A stretch of 64,000 nt of DNA, taken from NCBI RefSeq assembly GCF_000013725.1, contig NC_007955.1, forward strand, positions 527,579-591,578. The letters run 5' to 3'. The position numbers were made by a program, and so were the translations under genes. Position 1 is the stretch's first letter; every line of letters starts with the position of its first letter. Origin of the DNA: Methanococcoides burtonii DSM 6242. GTDB taxonomy: Archaea > Halobacteriota > Methanosarcinia > Methanosarcinales > Methanosarcinaceae. The notes under the pieces are model-generated. The model saw nothing but the letters and a program-made list of their open reading frames with translations, was not told the origin of the DNA and did no database searches. Below, piece by piece: positions 39,350 through 64,000 of this stretch.

Positions 39350-39419
39350 TATGAGTTATATAAAGATGAAATAAATAATACTGCTTACTATTAGAATATT
39401 TTAGAATAGCAAATTAGTA

Positions 39420-41801: not shown

Positions 41802-41957
41802 ATGAATATGAAATCAATCAAAGATACACAAAGAATTCTTGCAACTCTCTCTCCTTACCTCAAGGAGAAGCTAGTACAGATGTCAGACAAATTTGGATGC
41901 TATCAGGCAGAAGTTGTCAGGATAGCATTATTGAAGCTTTGGGAGGCTGAGAAATGA
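41802..41957 (+). CDS. ribbon-helix-helix protein, casposon core (A)
   Basis: 51 residues: ILATLSPYLKEKLVQMSDKF then GCYQAEVVRIALLKLWEAEK, a ribbon (short beta strand) followed by two helices as in CopG/Arc repressors. Too short for many gene callers but conserved in all three casposons (45-51 residues) with near-identical C-termini. It probably dimerises and represses the divergent promoters. Its TGA overlaps the next start by 4 bp (ATGA at 41954-41957), so it leads the polB operon. Confidence 0.82.
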   Translation: MNMKSIKDTQRILATLSPYLKEKLVQMSDKFGCYQAEVVRIALLKLWEAEK

Positions 41958-42592: not shown

Positions 42593-42608
42593 TGGGAGAG
42601 TGGATACT

Positions 42609-45606: not shown

Positions 45607-45631
45607 TAAAAAGTGAAGGAAGGTATTAAAA

Positions 45632-46600: not shown

Positions 46601-46782
46601 AGATATTATCCACCATTATAATGAAATATAATCATAGTCAATCAGGCACTATATAAAATATTCGATTTATCATTAATAGATATTTATACTTAATATACGG
46701 AACTTATTATCAAAAATCCAATAAGATTTTTAATTGTTCATTAATTGGAATAATACTAGCTAAAAATAACCTTAAGATATAG

Positions 46783-46813
46783 CGTACAAAAAAACAGACT
46801 TACCTATATCCCC
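46783..46813 (-). repeat. casposon A right terminal inverted repeat
   Basis: Plus strand CGTACAAAAAAACAGACTTA then CCTATATCCCC; complement of the left repeat with four mismatches. Confidence 0.92.
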
Positions 46814-46829
46814 TCATAACAAGTCGGGG
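46810..46829. repeat. casposon target repeat, copy 2 (A/B junction)
   Basis: CCCCTCATAACAAGTCGGGG, identical to copies 1 and 3. Its CCCC ends casposon A and its GGGG begins casposon B, so only the 12 central bases separate the two elements. Confidence 0.95.
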
Positions 46830-46856
46830 TAATAGGTAACGTGTAAAAACGGAACT
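46826..46856 (+). repeat. casposon B left terminal inverted repeat
   Basis: Begins GGGGTAATAGGTAACGTG and ends AAAACGGAACT; differs from the complement of 57841-57871 at a single base. Confidence 0.93.
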
Positions 46857-46897
46857 TTTGAAATTTAGAGTATCAGTCCTACATATAATAAATCATA

Positions 46898-48038
46898 GAG
46901 AATTCCGATAAACCCCTCAAACAGAAGCAATATTTATAACCTATTACAATAATTTTGTATTATGTCCTTAACAAACTTTGCTTTTAAAGAAGAGTACAAA
47001 CGTCTTGAAAATCTCGGTGACAAGCTCTCTGAAATTGAATCTCTCATCGATTGGAAACCATTTCGTCCAATTATAGCAGAGATGTATATCAATAAAACAG
47101 AGTTCGGTGGCAGACCAAACGTTGATGAAATCGTCATGCTCAAAATGTTAGTATTGCAACAATGGCATGGCCTATCTGACCCTGAACTTGAAAGACAAGC
47201 TACTGATAGAATTTCCTTTAGGAAATTCTTGGGCTTTCCTGCAAAAATTCCAGATCATACTACTGTTTGGGCATTTAGAGAACGAATTTCCCAGGCAGGA
47301 AAAGAAGATGAAATCTGGAATGAAATGCAAAGACAACTTAATAAGAAAGGTCTGAAGATCAAGCAAGGTATGATTCAGGATGCAACATTTATACATGCTG
47401 ATCCAGGACATGCAAATCTTGATACTCCTCGTGGAAATGAAGCAAAGACCAGAAGATGTAAGGACGGTACATGGACAAAAAAGGCATCTAAGTCACATTT
47501 TGGATATAAACTACATACCATTGAAGATACCGAATATGATCTGATAAGGAGATATAGGACAACTACTGCCTCAGTTCATGATAGTCAGGTGGATCTTTCT
47601 GAAGAAGGCGAAGTTGTTTACAGAGATAGAGGTTACTTTGGTGCAATTTCAAAAGGATATGATGCAACTATGCAAAGGGGAGTACGAGGGCACCCTATTG
47701 GTATTAGGGATAAGATGAGAAACAAAAGAATAAGCAGGAAAAGAGCAAAGGGAGAAAGACCTTATGCTGTTATCAAAAATGTGTTTACGTCAGGATTTGT
47801 AAGAGTAACAACGTTGGCAAGAGTAAATGTCAAAATGGCGATTACAGCATTCAGCTATAATCTCTATCAATTGAGGACAATAAGAAGAAAATCATTAGGA
47901 TGAATAGCGGTAGCTATTCAAAAAAGTTGGAAAGTATATAAATAGATACTAGCAAACTGCTGGAAATAGAGAGAAAAGCTCAAAATTTTAGCTGGAAATA
48001 TTTGCTTTGAAAAAAATCAGCAGTTAATCGCAATTCTC
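46898..48038 (+). mobile_element. IS5-type insertion sequence, copy 1, inside casposon B
   Basis: 1141 bp. Ends GAGAATTCCGAT and the complement of ATCGCAATTCTC (imperfect inverted repeats). Flanked by the 4-bp direct repeat CATA (46894-46897 and 48039-48042). The same sequence recurs at 48273-49413. Confidence 0.93.
46962..47903 (+). CDS. IS5-type transposase (copy 1)
   Basis: 313 residues. N-terminal domain typical of IS5 (FGGRPNVDEIVMLKMLVLQQ, HGLSDPELERQATDRISFRK), then DDE core: first Asp in GMIQDATFIHADPGH, second in VVYRDRGYFGA, Glu in KGERPYAVIKNVF region as in IS5-group enzymes. It cuts and pastes the element using 4-bp targets. The encoded protein is identical to that of copy 2. Stop TGA. 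Confidence 0.92.
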   Translation: MSLTNFAFKEEYKRLENLGDKLSEIESLIDWKPFRPIIAEMYINKTEFGGRPNVDEIVMLKMLVLQQWHGLSDPELERQATDRISFRKFLGFPAKIPDHTTVWAFRERISQAGKEDEIWNEMQRQLNKKGLKIKQGMIQDATFIHADPGHANLDTPRGNEAKTRRCKDGTWTKKASKSHFGYKLHTIEDTEYDLIRRYRTTTASVHDSQVDLSEEGEVVYRDRGYFGAISKGYDATMQRGVRGHPIGIRDKMRNKRISRKRAKGERPYAVIKNVFTSGFVRVTTLARVNVKMAITAFSYNLYQLRTIRRKSLG

Positions 48039-48272
48039 CATACTTATAATTTGAATCAGACCCACTACAAAAAAATAATTCATCACATAATGTTTTAGAT
48101 TTCAACATAAAATATTATTTTAAGTATTCATAGGCTATATTTCAAAACAAATTCGTAAAGTACTTAAGCCAATAATTAATACTTGTGATTATATGGCTTG
48201 GGAGTTTATTTTTTGAATTTAAATATTTTTACAACTAGAGAAATAGCAACAATTATTTGGGTTATAATTATA

Positions 48273-49413
48273 GAGAATTCCGATAAACCCCTCAAACAGA
48301 AGCAATATTTATAACCTATTACAATAATTTTGTATTATGTCCTTAACAAACTTTGCTTTTAAAGAAGAGTACAAACGTCTTGAAAATCTCGGTGACAAGC
48401 TCTCTGAAATTGAATCTCTCATCGATTGGAAACCATTTCGTCCAATTATAGCAGAGATGTATATCAATAAAACAGAGTTCGGTGGCAGACCAAACGTTGA
48501 TGAAATCGTCATGCTCAAAATGTTAGTATTGCAACAATGGCATGGCCTATCTGACCCTGAACTTGAAAGACAAGCTACTGATAGAATTTCCTTTAGGAAA
48601 TTCTTGGGCTTTCCTGCAAAAATTCCAGATCATACTACTGTTTGGGCATTTAGAGAACGAATTTCCCAGGCAGGAAAAGAAGATGAAATCTGGAATGAAA
48701 TGCAAAGACAACTTAATAAGAAAGGTCTGAAGATCAAGCAAGGTATGATTCAGGATGCAACATTTATACATGCTGATCCAGGACATGCAAATCTTGATAC
48801 TCCTCGTGGAAATGAAGCAAAGACCAGAAGATGTAAGGACGGTACATGGACAAAAAAGGCATCTAAGTCACATTTTGGATATAAACTACATACCATTGAA
48901 GATACCGAATATGATCTGATAAGGAGATATAGGACAACTACTGCCTCAGTTCATGATAGTCAGGTGGATCTTTCTGAAGAAGGCGAAGTTGTTTACAGAG
49001 ATAGAGGTTACTTTGGTGCAATTTCAAAAGGATATGATGCAACTATGCAAAGGGGAGTACGAGGGCACCCTATTGGTATTAGGGATAAGATGAGAAACAA
49101 AAGAATAAGCAGGAAAAGAGCAAAGGGAGAAAGACCTTATGCTGTTATCAAAAATGTGTTTACGTCAGGATTTGTAAGAGTAACAACGTTGGCAAGAGTA
49201 AATGTCAAAATGGCGATTACAGCATTCAGCTATAATCTCTATCAATTGAGGACAATAAGAAGAAAATCATTAGGATGAATAGCGGTAGCTATTCAAAAAA
49301 GTTGGAAAGTATATAAATAGATACTAGCAAACTGCTGGAAATAGAGAGAAAAGCTCAAAATTTTAGCTGGAAATATTTGCTTTGAAAAAAATCAGCAGTT
49401 AATCGCAATTCTC
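48273..49413 (+). mobile_element. IS5-type insertion sequence, copy 2, inside casposon B
   Basis: 1141 bp, same orientation as copy 1, flanked by TATA (48269-48272 and 49414-49417). The different target duplications show two separate insertion events, 226 bp apart (the 48043-48268 spacer is AT-rich and has no gene). Confidence 0.93.
48337..49278 (+). CDS. IS5-type transposase (copy 2)
   Basis: Same 313-residue protein as copy 1, with no difference seen in the translation, so at least one jump was recent. Two direct copies could mobilise or delete the intervening segment by recombination. Confidence 0.92.
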   Translation: MSLTNFAFKEEYKRLENLGDKLSEIESLIDWKPFRPIIAEMYINKTEFGGRPNVDEIVMLKMLVLQQWHGLSDPELERQATDRISFRKFLGFPAKIPDHTTVWAFRERISQAGKEDEIWNEMQRQLNKKGLKIKQGMIQDATFIHADPGHANLDTPRGNEAKTRRCKDGTWTKKASKSHFGYKLHTIEDTEYDLIRRYRTTTASVHDSQVDLSEEGEVVYRDRGYFGAISKGYDATMQRGVRGHPIGIRDKMRNKRISRKRAKGERPYAVIKNVFTSGFVRVTTLARVNVKMAITAFSYNLYQLRTIRRKSLG

Positions 49414-49480
49414 TATATTATTATTTTTATTATGCAAGTCCGAATATCAGTCTTCATTATTCAATATTGTTAAGGCTGCT

Positions 49481-50239
49481 TTGAATAGACACATCATTTT
49501 CTATTTTTTAACTTACTTATGTTATTTGTCGTTGATAACTTATTCTTTATATTATTTTGAATTGTGGAATTTGTCTTACTTTAAAAGTACTTCAATATGG
49601 TTCATATTTTCAGGTCTCCCAATTGGTTTTGTTGTTGTTGAAAACAAAACGGAATCTCATTTTTGGAAAAATCTGATATTGAATAATTTAAAGTTAGTAG
49701 TGTTCGTAACATTCATTATTAGTTCGGTCACATTTCCGTTAATATTAGAAGTTATTCTACTTCCAATTATAGCACTCATTGTGATATGCGACACGATTGC
49801 AACTACTAAAAATATAGGATTTGTTGCAAAAATTACTGGTATCGTTTTGGGACTTATTGGACTTAGTTTGTTCACGTATTCTTTGTATAGAGTATTAAGT
49901 GATATTCACTCAATTGGAAACATTAGCACATTAAAAGATTTCATGATGCCTGTGTTTTTCTCAACAATATCAATTCCTTACATGTATGCATTAAAACTGT
50001 ATTCTGAATATCAGTTATTATTTCTCCGTTTGAAATTCGGACAAAAAAGAAGTAGGAAGCTTAATTTTTTAATAAAAATACATCTTATTTTGTTCTGTAA
50101 TATGCAACTCAAAAAAATTCAAATTGCTAAGAATATGGGGAATTATAATATAATGTTAATATCCTCAAAGGAGGACATTACTGATATGATTGAAAGCTAT
50201 AAAAATGTATTACTTTTTGGAAAAAATAGACGCCATTAA
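49481..50239 (+). CDS. multi-pass membrane protein (casposon B cargo)
   Basis: 252 residues from a TTG start; no ATG in frame nearby, and the IS copy 2 end lies only 68 bp upstream, so the native 5' region may be altered. About five transmembrane helices (residues 4-24, 32-50, 70-90, 91-106, 113-135, 155-172), then a basic cytoplasmic tail (FLRLKFGQKRSRKL). It resembles a loose group of membrane proteins of mobile elements and defence loci whose function is unknown. A frame overlapping its 3' end (50190-50438) is not called with confidence. It converges with polB. Confidence 0.6.
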   Translation: MNRHIIFYFLTYLCYLSLITYSLYYFELWNLSYFKSTSIWFIFSGLPIGFVVVENKTESHFWKNLILNNLKLVVFVTFIISSVTFPLILEVILLPIIALIVICDTIATTKNIGFVAKITGIVLGLIGLSLFTYSLYRVLSDIHSIGNISTLKDFMMPVFFSTISIPYMYALKLYSEYQLLFLRLKFGQKRSRKLNFLIKIHLILFCNMQLKKIQIAKNMGNYNIMLISSKEDITDMIESYKNVLLFGKNRRH

Positions 50240-50564
50240 AATAGAACCAATCCATAACTCTACACATTTATTTAGCAGTGATGTTTTTTTTGGAAATTAT
50301 ATGAACAATGGTAAATATCAAATTTATATGAATATGTCTGAACAAGATTTTGGATATTATGAACTGAGATGCAAAGATAGTAATAGTAATACACCAGAAT
50401 CTGTTAGCAGTTTCATCTATACTAATATTTCTCATTAAACTTTGGGTGGAAATCTAGTATTTTACAAACAAACATTTGTAACTCTAAAGCACCCCACACA
50501 TGAACCTTTGATATTATGTAAGACTTTTTGATTATTCGATTGAAATTTGCATTATCACTCTCCT

Positions 50565-53234
50565 TTAAGCTTTTTTAACTAACTTCCTCACCGCCGGAGT
50601 ATTCAAATTCAAATCTTCATTTTCCCTTATCCTTTTTTTAATCCCATGAAATCTGCTTCTAGAAACTCCCAATGCTTCAGCCTGTTTTTGTGACATATTG
50701 AGGATATTTCCCATAATTTCTTGCTTGTTAATGAACTCTTGAGAACGCTTCACATCAAGAGCTTGCTCATCAATACTGTTAGCCTCTTTGCCGATATAAA
50801 TAACAGAATCAGCCTGAACATGCTTTCTCTCAAGTACTCCAATCTCTCCATCAAACTTAGATTCTGGATGATTAGCATACTCGATTATTGTCCTACTCAG
50901 TTGCTTGAAATAATGAGATCCTTGCTTAACCTCTCCTGTTTCATAATCAATGAAAGGCTCATAAACAATACTTTGAGGATCATTTGAAAAGGGAGCTAGT
51001 GGCTTTACTGCTTTCCCGTTTTCCTCAATGGTCTGAAACCCTACATGATAGAAGTTAAAAGGTTTGATCTGCTCAGCCCATGACTTGCCTTTATTGAATC
51101 CCTTGAACCTTCTCAGGACATTTGCAGTTGAAACAGTAAGCCTTGAGATTGCATAGAGGTTTGAATACTTCTCTTCAATATCTATCTCTGTAAGAATCCC
51201 ATAATGCAACTGAAGGAGATCTTCCCATATCTCAGCCTGCCAATCTCCAATAGTTTTTGGAAATGGATTTGTTAAATGTCCAAGTCCATGCAATTTGAAA
51301 GATCGCTCTCCTTCCATAAAGTTGATTTCTTCATTTTCATAAGTGTAAAGAGCATATCTTTTTGATGAAATGCCATAAGACCACATATCTTCTTTCTCAG
51401 GCTTCAATAGATCAATATCAAGGCTGTATGGGTTCAGTGGTTGGAAATAGTCTATAATCTCCTGTGCATGTTCAGGAGGAACAAAGATTGAATCTGTATC
51501 CATATACGCATGAACAGAATCAAGTTCTTTGGTTTTTGCTTCTGCCATAGCCAAAAATAGTTTAGATCCGGCTGTGATCATAACAGCAAGCAAAGGATGA
51601 TAATAATTCCCTGCCTTCTCATATCTGTTTTCTGAAGTATTAAAATCATCCAAGCCAAAAACCTGAATATCGCTTTTCTTATTTTCTGGATTAAGCTCAA
51701 TGAATATCCCATAGCTCATAGCATTAACCAGAATTTTGATAGCCTGTGCTCTGCTACTCAATTGTTGATATTCTGGATCATCTTTGCTAATATCCTTCAT
51801 ATGAAGCTTGATATTCTGCCTTTCTTCAACAAGTACCTGAACAAGATTATCTTTTGTAGGATCAACATCAATTCCAAGTATCTGTGATTTCTTTAAACCC
51901 TTCTGAATCCCTTTTGGAATAAACTTGATTGCTTCAATGATTATGGGAACTTTGCCAGTAAGAATAACTGAATTTATAACATCAGGTAAAGCATACCATA
52001 ATTCAGAATCGGAACTAAGATAATTGATGCCTACATTATAGCCCGTTCCAGATCCTTTGTAATCCATCCTGACAGGCACTATATCCTCATCAGGCTGTAT
52101 TTTAACCATAACAACAAAGTCTTTCCAGTTATCCTTATTCTGAAGATATGCAAGATTTACTTTTGAGAGCATCTCCTTAATTTCATCAGTAATATCTTTC
52201 ATCTCAAGTGATTCAGCAATCATAAACTTCCAGAGATCCATCTCCATAGTAATGGTTGGATACATGCTAGTAAAATCAAGAGTGGTTACTTTAACAGGCT
52301 CTTTCCTAATCTTACATTCACATCTTCCTCCATAGTAAGAAGTCATGATATTACCAAGCATCTCATGAGAAAACTCAGGATTAAGACTTAAAAATGATTC
52401 AATGCCCAATTGCTTTAAAGAATGTTTTCCAATAGATGCAGAACTGAATATCTTAGTTGGTGGGATGTCTATCTGATAATGATCTAATTCTTCAATTAGC
52501 TTCTCATAGACCTGATAAGTGGTTTCAACATCCTGAATTAGATAATCAATGTATTTCTTGGTTACTTTCCCATGCTCAATATTTTTCATCTTCTTGGTTT
52601 TGGTATTGAGTTTTTGCCCTGCTTTATCTAAAGAGATCTTTTTTGATTGGAGCAGTACCTCAGCTAACTTCTGAGCATCAAGGAAATAGCCTGTAAAATG
52701 ATCATTTCCTTTGTTTATCTTGGTTGAAGTAAACTTGAAATTATAAGCATCTCCCATCTTCTTAACGATAATAGGAGGATTGAACTTATTTTCTGAAAGT
52801 GTAAAAGTAAAGCCTCCCTTATTCTGCTTTCTTGAATCTCCTACTCTTTTAGAGATCCTGCTTATATCAAAGGGAAGATTGAAGCCAACACAAAGAGTTT
52901 TCAAACCAAAGACTTCAGGATAAAATACCTCATCAATGAATTCATTTAGGGTATAAAGAGGTATATCATACTTTGAAGTATATACTTCACATACCTTTTT
53001 TTCATTATCGTTAAGCATAGCAGCATCATAAAACATACCTTTATGCTGAATATACCCATCCTGGCATATCTTGAAATATCCTATCTTGACATTCTGATAT
53101 TGATCGGTTGTAGTTTCAGTATCAAATACCAGAGTTCTATCATGCCTTAATGGATCTTCTCTTGGTTTGAAAAAGGAATTACCTGAAGATTCCTTGATCT
53201 TCTGAGTATATCCCCTTAAAGCAATGTTAGACAT
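50565..53234 (-). CDS. polB: family B DNA polymerase (casposon B)
   Basis: 889 residues, intact. Motifs as in A: VFDTETT near the start, LDFTSMYPTI, KILVNAMSYG and YMDTDS. More diverged from A and C than those are from one another (for example GNSFFKPREDP where A has GNPFYIPKDVP). Its C-terminal module reads ILNMSQKQAEALGVSRSRFH and then LNTPAVRKLVKKA, again like the Cas1/wHTH module of A. Start overlaps the HNH end by 8 bp. Stop TAA. Confidence 0.95.
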   Translation of the reverse strand: MSNIALRGYTQKIKESSGNSFFKPREDPLRHDRTLVFDTETTTDQYQNVKIGYFKICQDGYIQHKGMFYDAAMLNDNEKKVCEVYTSKYDIPLYTLNEFIDEVFYPEVFGLKTLCVGFNLPFDISRISKRVGDSRKQNKGGFTFTLSENKFNPPIIVKKMGDAYNFKFTSTKINKGNDHFTGYFLDAQKLAEVLLQSKKISLDKAGQKLNTKTKKMKNIEHGKVTKKYIDYLIQDVETTYQVYEKLIEELDHYQIDIPPTKIFSSASIGKHSLKQLGIESFLSLNPEFSHEMLGNIMTSYYGGRCECKIRKEPVKVTTLDFTSMYPTITMEMDLWKFMIAESLEMKDITDEIKEMLSKVNLAYLQNKDNWKDFVVMVKIQPDEDIVPVRMDYKGSGTGYNVGINYLSSDSELWYALPDVINSVILTGKVPIIIEAIKFIPKGIQKGLKKSQILGIDVDPTKDNLVQVLVEERQNIKLHMKDISKDDPEYQQLSSRAQAIKILVNAMSYGIFIELNPENKKSDIQVFGLDDFNTSENRYEKAGNYYHPLLAVMITAGSKLFLAMAEAKTKELDSVHAYMDTDSIFVPPEHAQEIIDYFQPLNPYSLDIDLLKPEKEDMWSYGISSKRYALYTYENEEINFMEGERSFKLHGLGHLTNPFPKTIGDWQAEIWEDLLQLHYGILTEIDIEEKYSNLYAISRLTVSTANVLRRFKGFNKGKSWAEQIKPFNFYHVGFQTIEENGKAVKPLAPFSNDPQSIVYEPFIDYETGEVKQGSHYFKQLSRTIIEYANHPESKFDGEIGVLERKHVQADSVIYIGKEANSIDEQALDVKRSQEFINKQEIMGNILNMSQKQAEALGVSRSRFHGIKKRIRENEDLNLNTPAVRKLVKKA

Positions 53235-53559
53235 TTACAGTCATCTCCATTCCAAGATTAATCAAACAATCTCCAAGCTCTCTTAGTAAAGTACCAATTG
53301 AAATGATCTTGAAAGCTCTCTTATTCTGTAAGGAGGCTTCACTTGATCTTGCTTTAGGACTAAGTTTGTTCTGTTCTGCTGTTATTTTAGAATGACAATT
53401 CTTACAAAGAGGTTTGATCCAATCTGAATTATTCCTTCCTTCTACGTGATGCATCTCAATGACATTCTTGTTATCTTCTCCACATACAGCACATGCAATC
53501 GGTGGTTTCTTTCCCTTCTTTTGTTTCTTTAGATAAATCGCATAAGATTCTTTTTCCAT
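53227..53559 (-). CDS. HNH endonuclease, casposon core (B)
   Basis: 110 residues from ATG at 53559, preceded by AAGGAG. The same architecture as in A: CAVCGEDN, EMHHVEGRN and CKNCHSKITAEQNKL, then two helices. All zinc Cys and catalytic His residues are present. Third gene of the RHH-X-HNH-polB operon. Confidence 0.88.
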   Translation of the reverse strand: MEKESYAIYLKKQKKGKKPPIACAVCGEDNKNVIEMHHVEGRNNSDWIKPLCKNCHSKITAEQNKLSPKARSSEASLQNKRAFKIISIGTLLRELGDCLINLGMEMTVNV

Positions 53560-53571
53560 AGTATCCACTCC

Positions 53572-54213
53572 TTAACTTTGATATATCTGTAAAAATTCAG
53601 GCTCTTCCTGTGCTTCTGCAATATCATACAGTTGATCAAGATCTGTTACTAGCGAATGTTCTTCGCCGATAGCATCAATGATTTTAACGCCGTCAAATCT
53701 CTTTAACGAAGTATCATCGCCGTCTTTTAACCCCTTTTGAACGGCAGCAAAGTATTCGCCGATTAGCCTTCTATCTCTTGAATTCGTCGTTATTATCGTT
53801 ATCTGACCTGCGTTTCTATCGTAGATTAACATCTCCGTTTCGATATTATCGGTGGCGTTTATTTTCCATTTCCCGTTTGATTTATGGAGAGCTTTTCCAA
53901 GGTGCTTAACAGCAAAGTCTTTGTTTACCCCTACTTTCTCAACTGCTTTTGTTAAGGAGTCACCTTTTCTCATGTATCTCAAAACCTTGAGGGATAGAGT
54001 TCTATCCCTCTTTTGACTGGATGTCAAGGTTTGCCATGCATGATCCCTTAGTGTATGATCTTTCAATCTTAGATCTCTAAGATCTTTCAGGTTCATATTT
54101 GGAAATCTCTCATGTTTCCTGATGAGATCCTTTGCATATCGGGTATCCCTAGGTTGAGCTTTTAGCCATTCTCCATAGGTTCTGAATTTAGCTGAGAATA
54201 TTTTACGGCTCAT
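53572..54213 (-). CDS. conserved casposon protein with HTH-like segment (B)
   Basis: 213 residues, homologous along its length to the proteins of A and C (FRTYGEWLKAQPRDTRYAKD, LRYMRKGDSLTKAVEKVGV, GQITIITTNSRDRRLIGEYF) but noticeably diverged. Its base composition is GC-richer in the C-terminal half than neighbours (many CG dinucleotides at 53650-53870), which may reflect recombination with a different source. Start overlaps the RHH stop by 4 bp. Confidence 0.75.
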   Translation of the reverse strand: MSRKIFSAKFRTYGEWLKAQPRDTRYAKDLIRKHERFPNMNLKDLRDLRLKDHTLRDHAWQTLTSSQKRDRTLSLKVLRYMRKGDSLTKAVEKVGVNKDFAVKHLGKALHKSNGKWKINATDNIETEMLIYDRNAGQITIITTNSRDRRLIGEYFAAVQKGLKDGDDTSLKRFDGVKIIDAIGEEHSLVTDLDQLYDIAEAQEEPEFLQIYQS

Positions 54214-54347
54214 TTCTCAGCCTCCCAGAGTTTCAACAAGCCTATTCTGACAACTTCTGCCTGAGAGCATCCAAATTTATCTGACATCAGTACGATTTTC
54301 TCCTTGAGATAAGGGGAGATTGTTGTTAGTATTTTTTCACTAGTCAT
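54210..54347 (-). CDS. ribbon-helix-helix protein, casposon core (B)
   Basis: 45 residues: TTISPYLKEKIVLMSDKFGC and SQAEVVRIGLLKLWEAEK, orthologous to the A and C proteins. First gene of the operon, overlapping the next by ATGA. Likely repressor of the divergent control region. Confidence 0.82.
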   Translation of the reverse strand: MTSEKILTTISPYLKEKIVLMSDKFGCSQAEVVRIGLLKLWEAEK

Positions 54348-54466
54348 GGTACATCACCAATACCCTATAGGGCAGCATTAGTGATATTAACAATGATATT
54401 AACTTTGATACTAAAAATAACCATTAACAATATAAAGAATAACGAATATGATATTATATTAGATAT
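54348..54466. promoter_or_regulatory. divergent control region of casposon B with GATATTAAC iterons
   Basis: Two GATATTAAC copies (54383-54391 and 54395-54403) 12 bp apart, plus related GATACT/TGATATTAT sequence, lie between RHH and wHTH; a CCCTATAGGG palindrome sits at 54363-54372. The 12-bp period is the same as for the TTTAAGTAT iterons of A and C, but the sequence differs, matching the divergence of the B wHTH protein. Confidence 0.55.
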
Positions 54467-55381
54467 ATGGAGATAGTAAAAATGATTGAAAATGATATCA
54501 AATTTGAGGAGGAAGTTGTTCAGTATTTAAACAAAAATGGTAAAATGAGAAGAGAACAATTGATTGAAAAACTCAGACAAAAACATACAAAAACATACAA
54601 AACAGGAGAGGAATTTATAGATACAGGTTATAGTAAACCAACCATTAATCGAAAGCTCAAAGAAATGCTTGTATCTGGTGAAATTATACGTTTATATCAT
54701 TATCAACTTCAAAATTATGGTTTTCTGGAAGATGATGGACGTGCAACATATCTTTTTACTGAGGAAGGACTAAAAGTTAAAACACATATTGACAATGTTC
54801 TCCAACTTTTATCCTCAGGTGATGATATTGATAAGCAAATGGCTTTGAAAGAACTTAACCGGTATGAAAAACTGTATTCTTTTGATGAAAGCCAGTTGGA
54901 TTTAATTGTAAAAAATCTAACTTCTGTTAATGCAGACTTAACCACTAAATTCTTGGTTACTCTTTATGATTATATTATCAAAAAAGGAAAAGAACCAACA
55001 GATAAAGATGCTTTATTAAAAGCTCTTAGATCTGTTTTAGATAAATATGAGCAACCAAAGGGCAAGAGTGGAAACGTTAGAAACGTTGCTATAAATTTGT
55101 TGAGCCATTATAAAGATGAAGGCATAATTGACCAAATTATCAAAGATGCAACTACTTTAGACAATCCTCATGAAGCAGAAGAAGATTATGATATATCTGA
55201 AATTGCAGAACTTATTATTAATAACCCATCAAAGCTCTTCGAGGTTGAAAGACAATTGATGAGGGAAGGGAAGCATGATGCATCTCAATTTATTTCAAAT
55301 ATCAGAACAAAATGTATGGCTCATCTTGGAATGTCTGATGTTCCTATAAGAAATAATAACATTGAGGGAGCTGAGTTCTAA
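54467..55381 (+). CDS. winged-helix protein, casposon core (B)
   Basis: 304 residues. Winged-helix region about residues 15-105 (EEEVVQYLNKNGKMRREQLI, SKPTINRKLKEMLVSGEIIR, DDGRATYLFTEEGLKV), then a helical repeat part (MALKELNRYEKLYSFDESQL, NPHEAEEDYDISEIAELII). Homologous to the A and C proteins but strongly diverged and about 70 residues shorter: the C-terminal module shared with Cas1 and PolB is missing. Its stop overlaps the cas1 start by 1 nt (TAATG). Confidence 0.82.
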   Translation: MEIVKMIENDIKFEEEVVQYLNKNGKMRREQLIEKLRQKHTKTYKTGEEFIDTGYSKPTINRKLKEMLVSGEIIRLYHYQLQNYGFLEDDGRATYLFTEEGLKVKTHIDNVLQLLSSGDDIDKQMALKELNRYEKLYSFDESQLDLIVKNLTSVNADLTTKFLVTLYDYIIKKGKEPTDKDALLKALRSVLDKYEQPKGKSGNVRNVAINLLSHYKDEGIIDQIIKDATTLDNPHEAEEDYDISEIAELIINNPSKLFEVERQLMREGKHDASQFISNIRTKCMAHLGMSDVPIRNNNIEGAEF

Positions 55382-56577
55382 TGAAACTTCTACTTCTAAA
55401 CGGTCATGGAATTAACATGCGTGTAGATGGTGCTAAACTCCATATCAAAGATGGAAGATTCTCAGCAACTGAAGATCCTCAGGAGTATGTGTTCTCTCCC
55501 AAGAGGATTGATATTGATAGCATTGTTGTGTATGGTCGAAGTGGATCTCTAAGCTTTGAAGCTATCAGATGGTTGATTAAACACAATGTACAGGTTACTA
55601 TGTTAGATTGGAATGGCAAGTTTCTAACAACAATGCTTCCTTCTGAAAGTACCAATGTTAAAACAAAGTTTGCTCAATACCATGCTTATGAAGATCAGGA
55701 TGCAAGAGTAAAACTTGCAAGAAAATTCATTGAGGCTAAGTTCTACAAATCTGAAGCTGTTCTTGATTATCTTAAACAAAGGTATCCTGAGATTGAATAT
55801 GATTTCTCCGTTGATAAGGGTAAACTTGAAAATGCCAAATCTGTAAGAGAGATACTTGGGATTGAAGGTGGAGTTGCTTCAAAGTACTGGAATGAGTATT
55901 CTAAAGCTATTCCTGATGAATATGATTTCAGAGCAAGGACTGATAATAATGCCAGAGCTTCTAATTCAGGCGATAAAGTCAATGTTATGCTTAATTACGG
56001 ATATGCTTTGCTTGAATCTGAATGTCTGAGAGCCATCAATTCAGTTGGTCTTGATGCTCATGTAGGTTTCCTTCATGAGATGAATCCAAGTAAGAACAGT
56101 TTAGCCTATGATCTCCAAGAGCCATTTAGGTTTATTGTGGATCTTGCTGTTATGAACCTGATAGAAAAGGAAGTTATGGATAGTAAGGATTTTATCAGGA
56201 CTGAGAGTTTTTCATTGAGGCTTAAACCTACTGGAGCAAGGAAGGTTACTGATAAATTCAATTCTATGATGAACGGCAAGGTTGAGTATAGGAAGAAGAA
56301 TAGTTCTTGGGGATCTGTTCTTTTGGTTAAGGCAAGGGAGTTAAGCCATCAACTTGTAGGGAAGAGGAAAACAATTGAATTTAGTAAGCCTGTTTATGTG
56401 GTTGAAAGAGATGATTCCAATCTGTTGAGGAAAAGGATCATTGACATGCCTTATGTTGAATGGAAGAAGATGGGTTTCTCAAAGGGTACTCTCCATTACA
56501 TGAAGCAGAATGCCAAGAGTGATTTACCGTTTACTCTCAATGGTCATGTGAAGGAAAGGTTGGAGAATTGGGAATAA
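55381..56577 (+). CDS. cas1: Cas1 casposase (casposon B integrase)
   Basis: 398 residues. The metal-binding triad is present (NYGYALLESECLRAI, HVGFLHEMNPSKN, LQEPFRFIVD). Far more similar to A Cas1 than the wHTH or PolB proteins of A and B are to one another, suggesting recombination or strong constraint imposed by the shared target. The C-terminal module DMPYVEWKKMGFSKGTLHYM is retained. Likely able to act on the inverted repeats of neighbouring elements in trans. Stop TAA. Confidence 0.96.
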   Translation: MKLLLLNGHGINMRVDGAKLHIKDGRFSATEDPQEYVFSPKRIDIDSIVVYGRSGSLSFEAIRWLIKHNVQVTMLDWNGKFLTTMLPSESTNVKTKFAQYHAYEDQDARVKLARKFIEAKFYKSEAVLDYLKQRYPEIEYDFSVDKGKLENAKSVREILGIEGGVASKYWNEYSKAIPDEYDFRARTDNNARASNSGDKVNVMLNYGYALLESECLRAINSVGLDAHVGFLHEMNPSKNSLAYDLQEPFRFIVDLAVMNLIEKEVMDSKDFIRTESFSLRLKPTGARKVTDKFNSMMNGKVEYRKKNSSWGSVLLVKARELSHQLVGKRKTIEFSKPVYVVERDDSNLLRKRIIDMPYVEWKKMGFSKGTLHYMKQNAKSDLPFTLNGHVKERLENWE

Positions 56578-56678
56578 CAAATGATTTGCATTAAACATTT
56601 TTTATTTTGCTAAAATAACCTAAACTCGGTACACTATATATTTATGGTTGGAGGTTCGGAAAATGTTTATCTTGTATT

Positions 56679-57182
56679 ATGGGGAATGTTCCTATATTAT
56701 ATGGAGAAGGTAATCACATGAGTTATTCAAAAATTGAAAAGATATCTCATTTAATAGGGGAATTGGAGAGGGCATTTAAAGAATTCTCTGATGAAGACTT
56801 TGATGATATAAAACTTTTTGAAGAGATGGATTCTCTTTTTGTATCAATTCTTGACCCTAGTAATGTCAGCACGCATCCAAATATAGCTGAATTTTTACTC
56901 ACTAATAAGCACCGTTCACAATTTTTAGCACACATCAGATATGTAATTACACACAATTACAGCTTTAAAGGATCTAAAAATGGACACGAAGCATTTGTTT
57001 CTCCAAATCACATACAGTGGTATGATGATGGTGTAATGTTTTTAGAAGGAAAAGAACCGTTTTTAGGTTTTATTGGGTTGTACAGAAATAAAGAAGCAAG
57101 ATATGCAATTGCTGCTCGTGATGCTAAAGATGGAGAAGAACTTTCAAAGCCATTTGCTTATCAATATCATCACCATCGATGA
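56679..57182 (+). CDS. N-terminal part of a Shedu-like cargo gene or separate protein (casposon B)
   Basis: 167 residues (possible internal start at 56718, MSYSKIEKISHLIGELERAF). Helical N-terminus, then a beta-rich part (FVSPNHIQWYDDGVMFLEGK, FLGFIGLYRNKEARYAIAAR). The following gene (57258) encodes a DUF4263 nuclease that in full-length family members is preceded by a regulatory N-terminal region, so the two may be one interrupted gene. It ends HHHR-TGA; multiple stops separate it from 57258. Confidence 0.5.
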   Translation: MGNVPILYGEGNHMSYSKIEKISHLIGELERAFKEFSDEDFDDIKLFEEMDSLFVSILDPSNVSTHPNIAEFLLTNKHRSQFLAHIRYVITHNYSFKGSKNGHEAFVSPNHIQWYDDGVMFLEGKEPFLGFIGLYRNKEARYAIAARDAKDGEELSKPFAYQYHHHR

Positions 57183-57257
57183 TGCAAATGAACTAAATAA
57201 AAAAGTAAACGCATCACATCCCCTAATCTAAAAGTACCAATTAATGAACTAATACAA

Positions 57258-57758
57258 ATGTTAGAAGATGGGGAAGAGACAGAACATAGATATCAAGAAT
57301 GGATTGAAAAATATCCTTGGATATTGGGCTTACAATATAGTCTTGTGCAACGCCACACACAATTTGATAATGAAAATATACCTGATTTTACTGCTGTTCG
57401 TGTCCATGACAATTCTAGAGATATTTTCGAAATAAAACAACCTTTTTTGAATCTCTTTCGTAAAAATGGGGTATTCTCATCTGAGTTCAACGATTCTTGG
57501 AATCAAATTGAAAGATACTTAGATTTTGCAAGGGAGAATAAGGATTATTTAAGACGTAGCAAAGGACTAAACATTGAAAATCCAAAATGCTATTTACTTA
57601 TTGGATATAATCTAACACACGAAGAGAGAGATAAAATTCGAAGAAAGGAAAAGTTGAATTCCTCGATAATAATTCTAACGTATAATGACTTAATTCAATT
57701 TGCGGAAAATACCGTGGGTTTTCTAAAATCTAGATTAGAAACCAATGATGAAGAATGA
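57258..57758 (+). CDS. Shedu-like DUF4263 nuclease (casposon B cargo)
   Basis: 166 residues. HRYQEWIEKYPWILGLQYSL is the typical opening of the DUF4263 (Shedu SduA C-terminal) domain, followed by the PD-(D/E)xK core: NIPDFTAVRV (Asp) and RDIFEIKQPF (Glu-x-Lys), then the conserved SWNQIERYLDFARENKDYL and PKCYLLIGYNL. Shedu proteins are anti-phage nucleases. In-frame coding may extend upstream of the ATG to about 57210. Sits between cas1 and the right inverted repeat. Confidence 0.8.
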   Translation: MLEDGEETEHRYQEWIEKYPWILGLQYSLVQRHTQFDNENIPDFTAVRVHDNSRDIFEIKQPFLNLFRKNGVFSSEFNDSWNQIERYLDFARENKDYLRRSKGLNIENPKCYLLIGYNLTHEERDKIRRKEKLNSSIIILTYNDLIQFAENTVGFLKSRLETNDEE

Positions 57759-57840
57759 AATGTTATCTTCATCGTCTTTATTATTTTAGGTTATTTTATG
57801 TTGACAATTGAACATATTGTCATTAACAAAAAGCATAGGG

Positions 57841-57871
57841 AGTTCCGTTTTTTCACGTTACCTATTACCCC
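57841..57871 (-). repeat. casposon B right terminal inverted repeat
   Basis: Plus strand AGTTCCGTTTTTTCACGTTA then CCTATTACCCC; 30 of 31 positions match the left repeat. Confidence 0.93.
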
Positions 57872-57887
57872 TCATAACAAGTCGGGG
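57868..57887. repeat. casposon target repeat, copy 3 (B/C junction)
   Basis: CCCCTCATAACAAGTCGGGG, identical to copies 1 and 2; casposon C begins at its GGGG. Confidence 0.95.
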
Positions 57888-57914
57888 ATATAGGTAAGTC
57901 GAAAAAACACTACG
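57884..57914 (+). repeat. casposon C left terminal inverted repeat
   Basis: Starts GGGGATATAGGTAAGTC, the first 17 bases equal to the polB-side repeat of A, then diverges (GAAAAAACACTACG). Identified by homology and position; the partner is outside the window. Confidence 0.88.
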
Positions 57915-57996: not shown

Positions 57997-59286
57997 ATGG
58001 TTAAAGATATTGAAATATTCAGAAATAGTTGCTTTGAACTGTTAAATTTAATTGAACCATTGAGCAAAGAAGATGTAAACAGTGTAGAATATGATTTTAT
58101 AAATAATAAAAAGTTTTTAATTAAAAGTGGGTATGATTACAAATTAAATGCATTGGTTACTTTTCTTTTTACTGATAAGCATATAAATAATAATTATAGC
58201 AGAAAAATCATCAAAAGACGAATATATAAATTTATAGCAGATCTTAAAACAAATCCAGAAACAGATAAACCTAAATTAATTGATTCGTTTTTCAATTCGA
58301 CTGTTTTATTTCCAAATATTGAAAAATATACTATAATTAGGTTTGTCCAAAATTTAAATATCGATTCTGAAATTGCTATTGGTAATGTTTCGTTGCTCAA
58401 ATATTCAACATCTTCCTACAAGAATTTGTTAGCTTCTATGACAACGAGTAGCAAAAAAGATGAATTTATTGAAGCCGTGCTTAAATATAATGATGATGAA
58501 GATGTTAATTGTGTTGCAGTAGCTCATATAGAAGCTGGAGATAATGATAAGGCTTTGCAAAAAACGGATGCTAAAATCGAAGATGCATTGAGCATATTTA
58601 GACTATACGCTATTGATTCAAATTTTGGAATTAAAGGAAGCCTCAATTCTTATAGCACATCTGCAATAATCTCTATGCCAAATAAAACAGTACAAAGCAG
58701 TACCCACCGTCATAACATGTGGCTTGATGCCGATATAAGTTCAGACTCTCTAAAGGATATCAAGAACGATGGTTATACTAATATTAAAAAAATTGTTGAT
58801 CGAAGAGATTTGTATAAAGGTGACGTTGCTAGCTTAGAAGAAAGATTGATTAGAGCTATTAACACTTTTGGGAGTGTACTAACTAATCCTGAAAATCCTG
58901 AAAATATAATTAAACTCTTCACAGTTTTAGAAATACTATTGTTAACACAAAAGGATTCGAAAAGTATTAATCTGGGTGAAAGAGTTGCACTCGTCAATTA
59001 TCCATTATTTGATATTTCAAACAGAGATAAATTTCTAGAAGAAAAGCAGAAACGTGTGGATATAAAAACTAAGATTGCCACTCTTTATAAACATAGAAAT
59101 AGTTTAGTTCATGAAGGGCAGTCTGAAGTTAATAAACATGATTATAGATTAATATTAATTGAGACACAAGCATGTATAATTAATATAGCAAAAATAATAG
59201 ACAAATATCCAAATTATGATGATTTTATCAAAGTTATCATAGATACTATTGAGGATGCAAAAATGTCTATTTTGTTAAGATTTTGA
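57997..59286 (+). CDS. ApeA-like HEPN protein (casposon C cargo)
   Basis: 429 residues. The C-terminal ~110 residues look like an ApeA-type HEPN domain: IKLFTVLEILLLTQKDSK, NLGERVALVNYP and the Rx4-6H ribonuclease motif in LYKHRNSLVHEGQSEV (about residues 365-380). The N-terminal ~290 residues are a mixed domain (SFFNSTVLFPNIEKYTIIRF, LSIFRLYAIDSNFGIKG) typical of ApeA-like proteins, which are implicated in phage defence by RNA cleavage. It occupies the slot between the left inverted repeat and the polB 3' end, ending 6 bp from polB. Stop TGA. Confidence 0.72.
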   Translation: MVKDIEIFRNSCFELLNLIEPLSKEDVNSVEYDFINNKKFLIKSGYDYKLNALVTFLFTDKHINNNYSRKIIKRRIYKFIADLKTNPETDKPKLIDSFFNSTVLFPNIEKYTIIRFVQNLNIDSEIAIGNVSLLKYSTSSYKNLLASMTTSSKKDEFIEAVLKYNDDEDVNCVAVAHIEAGDNDKALQKTDAKIEDALSIFRLYAIDSNFGIKGSLNSYSTSAIISMPNKTVQSSTHRHNMWLDADISSDSLKDIKNDGYTNIKKIVDRRDLYKGDVASLEERLIRAINTFGSVLTNPENPENIIKLFTVLEILLLTQKDSKSINLGERVALVNYPLFDISNRDKFLEEKQKRVDIKTKIATLYKHRNSLVHEGQSEVNKHDYRLILIETQACIINIAKIIDKYPNYDDFIKVIIDTIEDAKMSILLRF

Positions 59287-59292
59287 GTGAAT

Positions 59293-61965
59293 TTATATCG
59301 CTCTATTCATTAACTCCCTCATTAACTTAGTCTTAAAATTCAACTTTCTTTCCACCACATTCTTTTTTAGTCTTATCAAATCACTTCTATGTTTAATTCC
59401 ATACACCATTGCTTCTTTAGGAGTGAGACCTAAAATCAATTGCTCGATCTCTTCAACATTAATAAACTCCTGAACCTTCGTCACATTCAATTCCTGTTCA
59501 TCAATATTGTTAGCTTCTTTCCCAATGTAAACAACACCATCAGCATGAACATGTTTTCTTTCAAGTACTCCAATCTCACCATCAAACTTATGCTCAAGAT
59601 GTTCCACATACTGCATTATTGTCCTGCTTAATGGTTTGAAATAATGAGATCCTTCTTTAATCTCTCCAGTTCCATAATCAATAAACGGTTCATAAACAAT
59701 ACTTTGAGGATCGTTTGAAAATGGAGCTAATGGTTTGACTGCCTTACCATCCTCTTCAGCAACTTGAAAACCAACATGATAGAAATTGAATGGTTTTATC
59801 TGGTCTTTCCATTCTTTCCCTTTATTAATAGCATCAAACCTATGCAACACATTTGCAGTTGAAACAGTCAGTCTTGAAATAGCATACATGTTTGAATACT
59901 TCTCTTCAATATCCAACTCTGATATCAACCCATAATGCAACATGAGAATATCTTCCCATATCTCAGCCTGCCAATCATCAACATTCTTTGGAAATGGATT
60001 TGTTAAATGTCCAAGTCCATGCAATTTGAAAGATCTCTCTCCCTCCATGAACTTGATCTGTTTATCTTCAAGAATATAGAGAGCATACCTCTTTGAAGAT
60101 ATGCCATAAAACCACATATCCTCTTTCTCAGGCTTCAACAGCTCAATGTCAAGGCTGTAAGGATTAAGAGGTTGGAAATAGTCTATGATCTCTTGAGCAT
60201 GTTCAGGAGGAACAAAGATTGAATCAGTATCCATGTATGCATGGACTGAACCAAGCTCTTTTACTTTAGCTTCAGCCATTGCTAAGAATAATTTAGATCC
60301 TGCTGTAATCATAACAGCTAACAAAGGATGAAAATAATTACCTGCTTTCTCAAATCTGTTCTCTGAAGTATTAAAATCATCCAAGCCATAAACTTGAATA
60401 TCAGTTTTCTTATCTTCTGGATTTAGTTCAATGAATATTCCATAACTCATAGCATTAACTAAAATCTTAATAGCTTGTGCTCTACTGTCCAATTGTTGAT
60501 ATTCAGGCTTTTCCTTATCAATACCCTTCATTTGAATTTTAAGATTTTGCCTTTCCTCAACAAGTACCTGAACAAGATTATCTTTAGTTGGATCTACATC
60601 AATTCCAAGTATTTGAGATTTCCTCAATCCCTTCTGAACACCTTTTGGAATATACCTGATAGCTTCAATGATCTCAGGAATTTTGCCAGTTAAAAGAACT
60701 GAAGCGATAACATCAGGTAAAGCATACCATAATTCATTATCAGAAGTAAGGTAATTAACACCTACATTATACCCTGTATTATTACCCTTATAATCCATCC
60801 TTACAGGTAAAATATCATAGTCAGGCTGTAACTTTACCATTACTACAAACTCTTTCCAGTTATCCTTATTTTGAAGATAATTAAGGTTAAGATTAGTTAA
60901 CATATTCTTAATTTCATCAGTAACATCCTTTGATTCAAGAGATTCAGCTATCATGAACTTCCAGAGATTCATCTCCATTGTAACAGTTGGATACATGCTA
61001 GTAAAATCAAGAACTGTAACTTTAGTAGGGTCTTTCCTGATCTTACATTCACATCTTCCACCATAGTAAGAAGTCATGTTGTTTCCAATGGTTTCTGAAG
61101 AATACTCAGGATTAAGATCTAAAAATGACTGTATCCCTAATTGTTTAAGAGAGTATTTTCCAATTGAAGCTGAACTGTATATCTTAGTTGGTGGGATATT
61201 TATCTGATAAAGATCAAGCTCATCAATCAACTTTTCATAAACCTGATATGTTGTTTCAACATCAGCAATTAAATAATCAATATATCTCTCAGTTACTTTT
61301 CCATGCTCAATTCCTTTCATTTTTTTAACATTAGTATTGAGCTTTTGACCTGCTTTATCTAAAGAAAGATGTTTTGATTGAAGCAATACCTCAGCTAACT
61401 TTTGAGCATCAAGAAAATAACCTGAAAACTTATCTTTGCCTTTGTTTATCTTGGTTGATGTAAATTTAAAATTATAAGCATCTCCCATTTTCTTAACAAT
61501 AATAGGAGGATTAAACCTGTTTTCTGAAAGAGTAAAAGTAAACCCTCCTTTATTTCTACCTCTTGAATCTCCAACTCTTTTAGAGATCCTGCTAATGTCA
61601 AAAGAAAGATTGAAACCAACACAGAGGGCTTTCAAATAAAATACTTCAGTATAAAAAACCTCATCAAGAAACTCATTCAGGGTATAGAGTGGTATATCCA
61701 ATTTAGAAGTATATACTTCACATACTTTAATTTCAGCATCAGTAAGCATTGAAATATCATAAAACATACCTTCATGCTGGATCTACCCATCTTGGTATAT
61801 TTGGAAATGTCCTATCTTGAAATTCTGGCATTGGTCTATTGTAGTCTCAGTATCAAAAACAAATACTCTATCATGTCTTAATGGAACATCCTTTGGTTTG
61901 TAAAAAGGATTAACTGAAGATTTCTTCATCTTCTGAGTATATCCTCTTACAACAATCTTAGACAT
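59293..61965 (-). CDS. polB: family B DNA polymerase with one in-frame UAG (casposon C)
   Basis: Counting through a TAG at 61785-61783, the gene is 890 codons, exactly the length of A polB. The TAG stands where A and B have Tyr: QDG-UAG-IQHEGMFYD versus QDVYIQHEGMF and QDGYIQHKGMFYD. No other stop or frameshift exists in 2.67 kb, and all motifs are kept (VFDTETT, LDFTSMYPTV, KILVNAMSYG, YMDTDS). Without readthrough, initiation at 61767 would omit the exonuclease motif I. C-terminal module: LGLTPKEAMVYGIKHRSDLI. Overlaps HNH by 8 bp. Stop TAA. Confidence 0.88.
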
Positions 61966-62353
61966 CTACGGTCATCTCCATTCCGACATTGATTAATCGC
62001 TGTCCAAGTTCTCTTAGTAAAGCTCCAATGGAAATAATGTTGAAGGCTGTTAGATTTTCTGAGGATGCTTTTTTAGATCTTACTTTTGGACTAAGTTGAT
62101 TCTGTTCTGTTGTTATTTTGGTATGACAATTCTTACAAAGAGGCTTTACCTAATCTGAATTATTTCTTCCATCAACATGATGCATCTCAATTACATTTTC
62201 ATCATCTTCTCCACAAACCGAACATGCAATGGGTGGTTTCTTCCATTTCTTCTTATTTCTTGTATTTTCTTGTTCATTTCTTATGTTTTCTTGTTCATTT
62301 CTTAAACATTTCTTGTTTTTTCTTATGTTTTTCTTGTAACTTTCTTTATCCAT
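61958..62353 (-). CDS. HNH endonuclease with one in-frame UAG and low-complexity insert (casposon C)
   Basis: From ATG at 62353 the frame reads DKESYKKNIRKNKK, then a ~20-residue insert with a duplicated RNEQEN unit absent in A and B, then KKPPIACSVCGEDDENVIEM and HHVDGRNNSD. TAG (62152-62150) replaces the Trp of SDWVKPL, after which VKPLCKNCHTKITTEQNQLS and the helices continue to TAA at 61958. Total 131 codons before the stop, including the UAG. Without readthrough the second zinc half-site is lost. The insert derives from a TTTCTTGTTCATTTCTTATG-like tandem repeat. Confidence 0.8.
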
Positions 62354-62369
62354 AGTATCCACTCTCCCA

Positions 62370-63008
62370 TTAAACATATAATTCAAAGAATTCAGGCTCT
62401 TCCTGTGCATCCAGAATCTCATAGAGTCTTTCAAGATCAGTTACAAAATAATGCTCTTTACCATCAGCATCAATGACAATAGCATTATCAAATTTCTTCA
62501 AGCACTTTGTATCACCAGATTTTAAAGCTTTATTAACAGCATTGAAATATTCAGCAATTAAGCTTCTATCTTTTGATCTTGTTGTAACGATTGAGATTAA
62601 TCCTTCATCTCGATCATAGAACATCATCTCAGATTCAATTCTATCTAAAACTGTAACTGTCCATTTCCCTTTAGATTTGTAAAGATATTTTCCAAGATTG
62701 ATAATAGTGTTTTTTTTGTTAGCTCCTGTTTGTTCAATTGCTTTTGAAAATGGAACTCCTTTTCTCATAAGCCTGAGAATTTGAAGAGATAGATTTCTAT
62801 CTCTCTTTTGTGGTGCTTTCAGTATCTTCCATGAAGTTGTACTCAGGTTATGATCTTTGAGTCTTGTATTTCTCAATTCATTCAGATTGAGAGTTGGAAA
62901 CCTTTCATGAAACCTGATTACTCTTTTAGCATACTCTGAAGTTCTTGGCTGAGCTTTAAGCCAATCTCCATAGTTCTTATAATCCTTTGAAAATCGCTTG
63001 AGAGTCAT
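62370..63008 (-). CDS. conserved casposon protein with HTH-like segment (C)
   Basis: 212 residues, intact, very close to the A protein (DYKNYGDWLKAQPRTSEYAK, LRLMRKGVPFSKAIEQTGAN, DAQEEPEFFELYV). Its intact state beside three UAG-containing neighbours argues against general decay of element C. Start overlaps the RHH stop (ATGA). Confidence 0.8.
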   Translation of the reverse strand: MTLKRFSKDYKNYGDWLKAQPRTSEYAKRVIRFHERFPTLNLNELRNTRLKDHNLSTTSWKILKAPQKRDRNLSLQILRLMRKGVPFSKAIEQTGANKKNTIINLGKYLYKSKGKWTVTVLDRIESEMMFYDRDEGLISIVTTRSKDRSLIAEYFNAVNKALKSGDTKCLKKFDNAIVIDADGKEHYFVTDLERLYEILDAQEEPEFFELYV

Positions 63009-63154
63009 TTCTCAGCCTCCCAGAGTTTCAACAATGCCATTCTGACAACTTCTGCCTGAGAGCATCCAAATTTATCTGACATCTGTACTAGCTTCTCCTT
63101 GAGGTAAGGGGAGAGAGTCACAAGAACTTTTGGTTTATAGTCTATTGAGTTCAT
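63005..63154 (-). CDS. ribbon-helix-helix protein, casposon core (C)
   Basis: 49 residues: VLVTLSPYLKEKLVQMSDKF and GCSQAEVVRMALLKLWEAEK. Orthologue of the A and B proteins, heading the operon; the most variable part is the N-terminal ~10 residues. Confidence 0.82.
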   Translation of the reverse strand: MNSIDYKPKVLVTLSPYLKEKLVQMSDKFGCSQAEVVRMALLKLWEAEK

Positions 63155-63235
63155 ATTAATCAATATACTATAGGCTTGCAACAGATTTATATCACATTTA
63201 AGTATAATTTTAAGTATGAATTTAAGTATAAATAC
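63155..63235. promoter_or_regulatory. divergent control region of casposon C with TTTAAGTAT iterons
   Basis: Three TTTAAGTAT copies at 63197-63205, 63209-63217 and 63221-63229, exactly 12 bp apart, the last two overlapping the wHTH start codon (63216). The same motif and spacing occur in A. Confidence 0.65.
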
Positions 63236-64000
63236 AGATAAGAATAACTATAATTCTTATAAGAATACGAATGAGTTTGAGTATAATACAACTTCTATTT
63301 TACAAGAGATTCCATTTATGAGAAAACGGGATCTCATCAAAAAATTAAGAACTCAATTTAAGAAAACCAGAGGCTATAGCGTTGAAAATATTCAAAAGAA
63401 ACTCTATGAAATGCAGGGCGCAGGCATTCTACTTGTAATTAAATATGAGTTTCTTCAAAACTATGGAATAAAAGACGACGATAAACGTTCTACTTACGTT
63501 ACACTAAGAAGGACTGAAGAAAGAGCTTCTCATCTAGATACTGCCATTAACAAACTTCAATCAAATAATCCAATTAAACAAAAAATGGCATTAAAAGAAA
63601 TAGAAAATTATGAAAAACATTATGCATTAAATCCTAAACAATTAGATATACTTGTATCTATTCTAGAAACTGATGATAGTGATTTACTTGACCATGTATT
63701 AAGGATTATTTACAACTATGTTGAATACAAGAAAATATAGCCATCAAATGAATCTAAGACTATTGATACCCTTAGATCATTGATACAAAGAATCCCTGAA
63801 CCACTATCTAGGCACAGTAATTTAAGATCCCATATCATATATTTGCTTGGTTTTTATAATGATCCTGCTGTTGTTGAACGACTTAAAAAAGATGCTGTAA
63901 CATTAGATCATCTTCATGAAATTAAAGAAGAATATAAATTAGGAACAGCCGCTAACATAATTGAAGAACACAGGGAGGAATTGTATGATTTTGAAGAAAA
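63216..64000 (+). CDS. winged-helix protein with one in-frame UAG (casposon C, incomplete at window end)
   Basis: Starts MNLSINTDKNNYNSYKNTNE as in A. TAG at 63738-63740 stands where A has Asp (VEYKKI-UAG-PSNESKT versus IEYKKIDPSNETKT); the frame then stays open and homologous to A (RSHIIYLLGFYNDPAVVERL, TAANIIEEHREELYDFEE) to the end of the window. The winged helix lies before the UAG (PFMRKRDLIKKLRTQFKK, YVTLRRTEERA). Confidence 0.82.

Follow-up and report, generated by a model that had tools for sequence, protein, structure and literature searches.

Whether an in-frame amber codon inactivates a mobile element in an archaeon equipped to decode UAG as pyrrolysine (Pyl) is the question raised by the last of three adjacent casposons in a stretch of 64,000 nucleotides from the Methanococcoides burtonii DSM 6242 genome (hereafter the window; G000:C1:527579-591578, part of a closed single contig of 2,575,032 bp). 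This element, here called casposon C, has a total length of about 10.1 kb and carries in-frame TAG codons in three of its five core genes, while its neighbors A and B have none. Our analysis suggests that casposon C is probably a structurally complete family-2 casposon in which the three UAGs would be inefficiently read as pyrrolysine, leaving the element attenuated, not dead.

Three TAG codons in otherwise intact core genes

Casposon C has the family-2 gene set, with an HNH nuclease gene and helix-turn-helix (HTH) genes in conserved order. Its open reading frames (ORFs) and TAG codons, including those of the winged helix-turn-helix (wHTH) gene, are as follows; positions beyond 64000 are in coordinates extended past the window end.

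57997..59286, + strand: left-arm ORF of 429 aa, without Pfam match and without internal stop
59293..61965, - strand: polB, 890 codons, with a single in-frame TAG; PF00136 match
61783..61785, - strand: TAG at polB codon 61; A and B encode Tyr here, relatives Y, V, F, G, W, I, K, L, H, or C
61958..62422, - strand: HNH nuclease gene, 154 codons, with a single in-frame TAG
62150..62152, - strand: TAG of the HNH gene; A and B encode Trp here, relatives W, E, K, V, Q, L, I, M, or Y
62370..63008, - strand: intact HTH-type core gene encoding 212 aa
63009..63215: divergent intergenic (promoter) region separating the two HTH genes; 88% identity to A across 209 bp
63216..64118, + strand: wHTH gene, 300 codons, with a single in-frame TAG; passes the window end at 64000
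63738..63740, + strand: TAG at wHTH codon 175; A encodes Asp here and B Glu, relatives E, K, Q, D, or T
64125-65330 (extended coordinates, outside the window; L003 7704-8909): cas1, intact ORF of 401 aa

The interrupted genes are colinear with their homologs on both sides of each UAG. With the TAG read through, polB is 87% identical to that of A over 885 residues, and HNH differs from its counterpart in A by an extra 21-codon in-frame insertion. Apart from the three TAGs, no in-frame stop and no frameshift was found in the five core genes. The original prediction, made from the letters of the window alone, had placed a single TAG in polB, in HNH, and in wHTH, opposite Tyr (A and B), Trp (A and B), and Asp (A), respectively, and had described polB as equal in length to that of A and the genes as free of other lesions. 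Its coordinates, frames, and residues were borne out, polB has 890 codons in both elements, and the absence of further lesions holds for all five core genes. Lesions in cas1, which had been named as a sign against function, were not found: the 401-aa ORF is intact and matches the Cas1-solo integrase family (PF01867, E 5e-67).

The UAGs of casposon C are private, as homologs have no UAG at the same positions. A conserved UAG marks the catalytic Pyl class only, which places the casposon C genes outside that class. From neighboring intact sequence, single-base mutation to a stop in these genes is expected to yield TAA in 47%, TAG in about 32%, and TGA in 21% of cases, and the chance that all three stops in casposon C are TAG is P ~0.034.

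Decoding of UAG by the host

The genes on which the original prediction hinged are present. The host genome encodes a tRNA-Pyl with a CTA (CUA) anticodon along with PylS (E 3e-132) and PylB (E 4e-178), and the ORFs that come after pylB are, on the basis of gene order only, consistent with pylC and pylD. An evenly spread 476-kb sample of the genome contains 395 ORFs of 120 aa or longer, of which 11 end with TAG, 202 with TGA, and 182 with TAA, and some of these 11 TAGs are internal to genes. Two homolog-verified examples emerged. In an ADP-dependent sugar kinase (ADP-PFK/GK; G000:1424304-1425659, L015 8034-9392), the PF04587 match runs unbroken across the TAG, the catalytic GD-type motif lies downstream of it, and a stop-free relative occurs in all ten other Methanococcoides genomes of the set. 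The other is a 430-aa protein without assigned function (G000:134243-135532, L006 5492-6781), with TAG at codon 151; its relatives, more than 50, are all stop-free and nearly all full-length and colinear. Both conserved TAG-spanning genes and the small share of ORFs that end with TAG support the earlier proposal that this host tolerates UAG as sense. A 2025 study is reported to have found that some archaea, including Methanococcoides, decode TAG as pyrrolysine throughout; it was not used as evidence.

A raw count of stops flanked on both sides by coding-like sequence when read as sense (TAG 3, TGA 6, TAA 11) was set aside; a TAG excess shows only after division by the terminator counts (11, 202, and 182, respectively), and homolog-verified genes were therefore preferred. 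A modified release factor was rejected as an explanation, since the sole archaeal release factor 1 (aRF1) has normal NIKS, YxCxxxF, and GGQ motifs.

The proposal that only the DUF2115 gene in the window terminates with TAG stood in part: this gene (16515-17069) does so, and ORF 36915-37412 does as well. The latter has a 24-codon in-frame continuation and is without relatives in the ten other Methanococcoides genomes.

A second casposon interrupted by TAG only

We surveyed about 43 casposons with about 200 full-length core genes in Methanosarcinaceae, a family in which pylS was detected in 100 of 112 genomes. Structurally complete elements contained six in-frame stops, and all six were TAG (P ~0.0026 by chance). 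Three are those of casposon C and three belong to an element in a Methanohalophilus-like genome (G033; 2,012,424 bp).

L060 2997-7695: G033 casposon; TAG at polB codon 82 and at wHTH codons 226 and 257

No other stop occurs in the five core genes of the G033 casposon, and its cas1, HNH, and HTH genes are intact. Its ends were not recognized in a repeat search, and no further intact casposon PolB or Cas1 is present in its genome. The two elements carry their TAGs at different sites, implying independent origins. The six TAG columns are more variable in mean entropy than random TAG-adjacent codons (P 0.004 pooled, 0.02 within gene). Relatives have Lys at all six sites (P 0.016 and 0.034). Location at tolerant, Lys-accepting sites fits a sense reading of these codons, as decay would not respect such sites. 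None of the approximately 41 surveyed cas1 copies contains a TAG. Nor was a TAG-only interruption found in 67 full-length PolBs drawn from GTDB as a whole, most of them from hosts that do not belong to Methanosarcinaceae, a sample too small to decide alone.

Several other interrupted genes were not taken as recoding candidates. In a Methanococcoides casposon (G018; L061 5653-8307), polB shows four in-frame TGAs within 55 codons; recoding was rejected here because residues 616-692 match in another frame without a stop, which indicates a compensated double frameshift, either real or from assembly. Stops near the N-termini of the wHTH matches L093, L096, L107, and L114 probably precede the true start codons and were left out of the count. 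The L080 element holds cas1 fragments only, and its HTH gene with TGA and TAG was thus treated as decayed.

Constraint on casposon C and the appearance of true remnants

The ratio of nonsynonymous to synonymous substitution rates (omega) on the casposon C branch, calculated from three-taxon distances over the codons after each TAG and the two intact genes, was 0.129, 0.158, and 0.152 in three triples, with 95% intervals within 0.108-0.209. It equals that of intact copies. If omega is about 0.14 under constraint and 1 under neutrality, the unconstrained part of the branch amounts to no more than about 8%. Relaxed selection after the UAGs, which had been named beforehand as evidence against function, was thus not seen (branch omega 0.13-0.16).

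Casposon remnants elsewhere in the same genome display mixed TGA, TAA, and TAG stops and truncation, and in decayed polB fragments across the family TAG makes up 14 of 48 stops. Casposon C bears none of these pseudogene marks: mixed stops, frameshifts, truncation, and relaxed selection are all absent, although very recent relaxation would be invisible.

Terminal repeats and target site duplications

A 20-mer, CCCCTCATAACAAGTCGGGG, occurs exactly four times genome-wide, every time at a casposon border. It resolves into a 14-bp target site duplication (TSD), CTCATAACAAGTCG, and terminal inverted repeats (TIRs), which define the elements as follows.

38366-38379, 46813-46826, 57871-57884, and 68005-68018 (the last in extended coordinates): four identical copies of the 14-bp CTCATAACAAGTCG at the borders of casposons A, B, and C
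38379..46813: casposon A, the comparison element between its duplicated target sites; core genes without internal stops
46826..57871: casposon B, the comparison element between its duplicated target sites; core genes without internal stops; holds two IS5-type copies
57871..57884, + strand: 14-bp TSD CTCATAACAAGTCG to the left of casposon C, shared with the right end of B
57884..57914, + strand: left TIR of casposon C, GGGGATATAGGTAAGTCGAAAAAACACTACG; pairs with the right end at 16/17 positions, followed by an A-tract

The TIRs of A and B match almost perfectly, and in casposon C the TIR and the 14-bp TSD are intact at both ends. Related Methanococcoides elements have the same TIR, with duplications starting with CGCA, and lie beside tRNA-like 3' ends. 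Judged from its sequence, casposon C is a structurally complete element, and its intact ends make it plausible that it is functional.

A left-end-like TIR also follows the fourth 14-bp copy, suggesting the remnant of a fourth element. IS5-type copies, 99.7-100% identical, are located at 46891-48052 and 48266-49426 in casposon B and at 66472-67614 (extended coordinates) in casposon C; the latter apparently splits a segment of about 300 bp that is also present, inverted, just outside C. Casposon A includes a PIN-domain gene (45632-46600), and a short ORF of casposon B (57258-57758) matches the C-terminal domain of the Shedu defense protein SduA (PF14082, E 1e-17).

Attenuation, decay, or regulation

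We propose that Pyl-tRNA, provided by tRNA-Pyl and PylS, would compete with aRF1 at the UAGs of the casposon C genes, and that PolB, HNH, and wHTH would each be made full-length at a fraction of normal yield, alongside intact Cas1. In Methanosarcina acetivorans, an introduced amber yields 20-30% full-length product, and a special context is not needed (PMC2933860). A TAG mutation in a casposon gene would then act as a mild missense change combined with a loss of expression, not as a null, and selection would see a mild allele. Since such a mutation would be mild in this host, TAG alleles could persist at positions that tolerate change, and selection would remove TAA, TGA, and frameshifts. We infer from these features that the three UAGs may be translated, that the products may be active, and that casposon C may be mobile; for the element as a whole, dimmed appears more likely than dead.

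Several observations weigh against this proposal. TAG acts as a real terminator of pylB and DUF2115, and the single aRF1 of the host looks normal; with TAG still ending some genes, UAG decoding is best viewed as competition. Confirmed sense TAGs are rare in the sampled host genes (2 of about 430) yet three of the five core genes of casposon C carry a TAG, so that C does not simply mirror the host background. The polB stop, at codon 61, would be severe should readthrough be poor. Finally, omega excludes an old death of casposon C but is compatible with a recent one, the last ~8% of the branch being long enough for several nonsense mutations.

A recent death, already published as the verdict on two of the genes (PMC4046053), is in our view a possible, though clearly less probable, account. 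Casposon C would have been inactivated recently and be in early decay, with three nonsense mutations that are TAG by chance, and A and B may serve in trans, so that C's own genes are no longer needed. The restriction of the TAGs to C and their absence from A and B agree with this, as does the omega interval, which fits neutrality over the share of the branch given above, and the near-identical ends could permit trans-mobilization. Chance, however, would have to produce only TAG both in C and across the survey, with indels, TAA, and TGA all absent from the core genes of C, and would have to place the TAGs at tolerant, Lys-accepting sites that decay does not choose. True remnants in the same genome look different, with mixed stops and truncation, and the genome with the parallel G033 element has no further intact casposon PolB or Cas1. 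Sequencing or assembly errors are hardly credible as a source of the TAGs. The codons rest on one reference genome of this organism; however, this genome is closed in a single contig, it would be odd for three independent errors each to create an in-frame TAG without a frameshift, and ambers were also read from the public sequence in the 2014 study (PMC4046053).

The UAGs might instead be adaptive, tying the proteins for replication and integration to the supply of pyrrolysine; the element would then be active only during methylamine metabolism, which would limit its cost. We consider this unlikely. Two elements in two genera, which acquired three TAGs each independently of one another and have polB and wHTH hit in both cases, point in this direction, as does cas1 without TAG throughout the survey, and neutral tolerance alone leaves the clumping of TAGs unexplained. 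Nothing, however, links these genes to methylamine-dependent expression; the TAG positions are not shared by the C and G033 elements, no TAG occurs in about 41 further casposons whose hosts decode Pyl, and weak selection fits the pattern too. It is equally doubtful that completion of the casposon's replication and regulatory proteins would require pyrrolysine production by the host, with mobility gated by methylamine metabolism, independently also in Methanohalophilus. The clumping, just as dense in the G033 element, suggests either that lower expression is tolerated or that lower or conditional expression is favored, the two not being separable. Attenuation by inefficient Pyl insertion remains our preferred explanation for casposon C.

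Relation to known systems

Casposon C fits MetBur-C3, the third of the three adjacent, related family-2 casposons MetBur-C1 to C3. Krupovic et al. noted ambers in two genes of MetBur-C3, judged it apparently inactivated, and could not identify TIRs for the three M. burtonii casposons (PMC4046053). To this account we add a third amber, the TIRs, the 14-bp TSD, and amber decoding by the host, and the published verdict looks premature. A full-text search returned no paper treating casposon ambers as pyrrolysine, passing co-mentions of both words left aside. In Pyl-decoding archaea, genes with ambers are routinely labeled pseudogenes, and a verdict of inactivation does not follow in such a host. 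The casposon C genes are concrete cases for testing UAG as sense outside the methylamine enzymes, two elements in two genera can now be named with a shared TAG-only pattern, and the TIRs and target duplication, previously missing for the M. burtonii casposons, make excision testable by PCR.

MetMaz-C1 of Methanosarcina mazei is mobile in vivo, where it was observed to insert in tandem into its own TSD (PMC10359463, PMC6977970). It has in common with casposon C a length of about 10 kb, Cas1-solo, PolB, HNH, and a 14-bp TSD, and the TIR of casposon C resembles its published TIR, GGGATATAGGTAACTCAAAAAAACGCAACGC (PMC10359463), and is near-identical to it (GGGATATAGGTAACTC...). Unlike MetMaz-C1, casposon C has three UAGs, its TSD starts with CTCA instead of the CGCA motif of M. 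mazei, and it is known here from sequence alone.

UAG-containing transposase genes of M. acetivorans and M. mazei (PMC2933860, PMC3639795) are likewise mobile-element ambers in Pyl-decoding archaea. The transposase amber is conserved across the family in Methanosarcina, in contrast to the private ambers of casposon C, and M. burtonii members of this transposase family have none. Thg1 of M. acetivorans (PMC2933860) has a species-private, dispensable amber at a tolerant site that is translated as pyrrolysine; it is an enzyme of the host in which Pyl was physically proven, whereas the case of casposon C is built on its sequence. The methylamine methyltransferases MtmB, MtbB, and MttB use the same codon and the same tRNA-Pyl/PylS machinery; in these enzymes Pyl is catalytic and conserved, whereas in casposon C it would replace variable residues.

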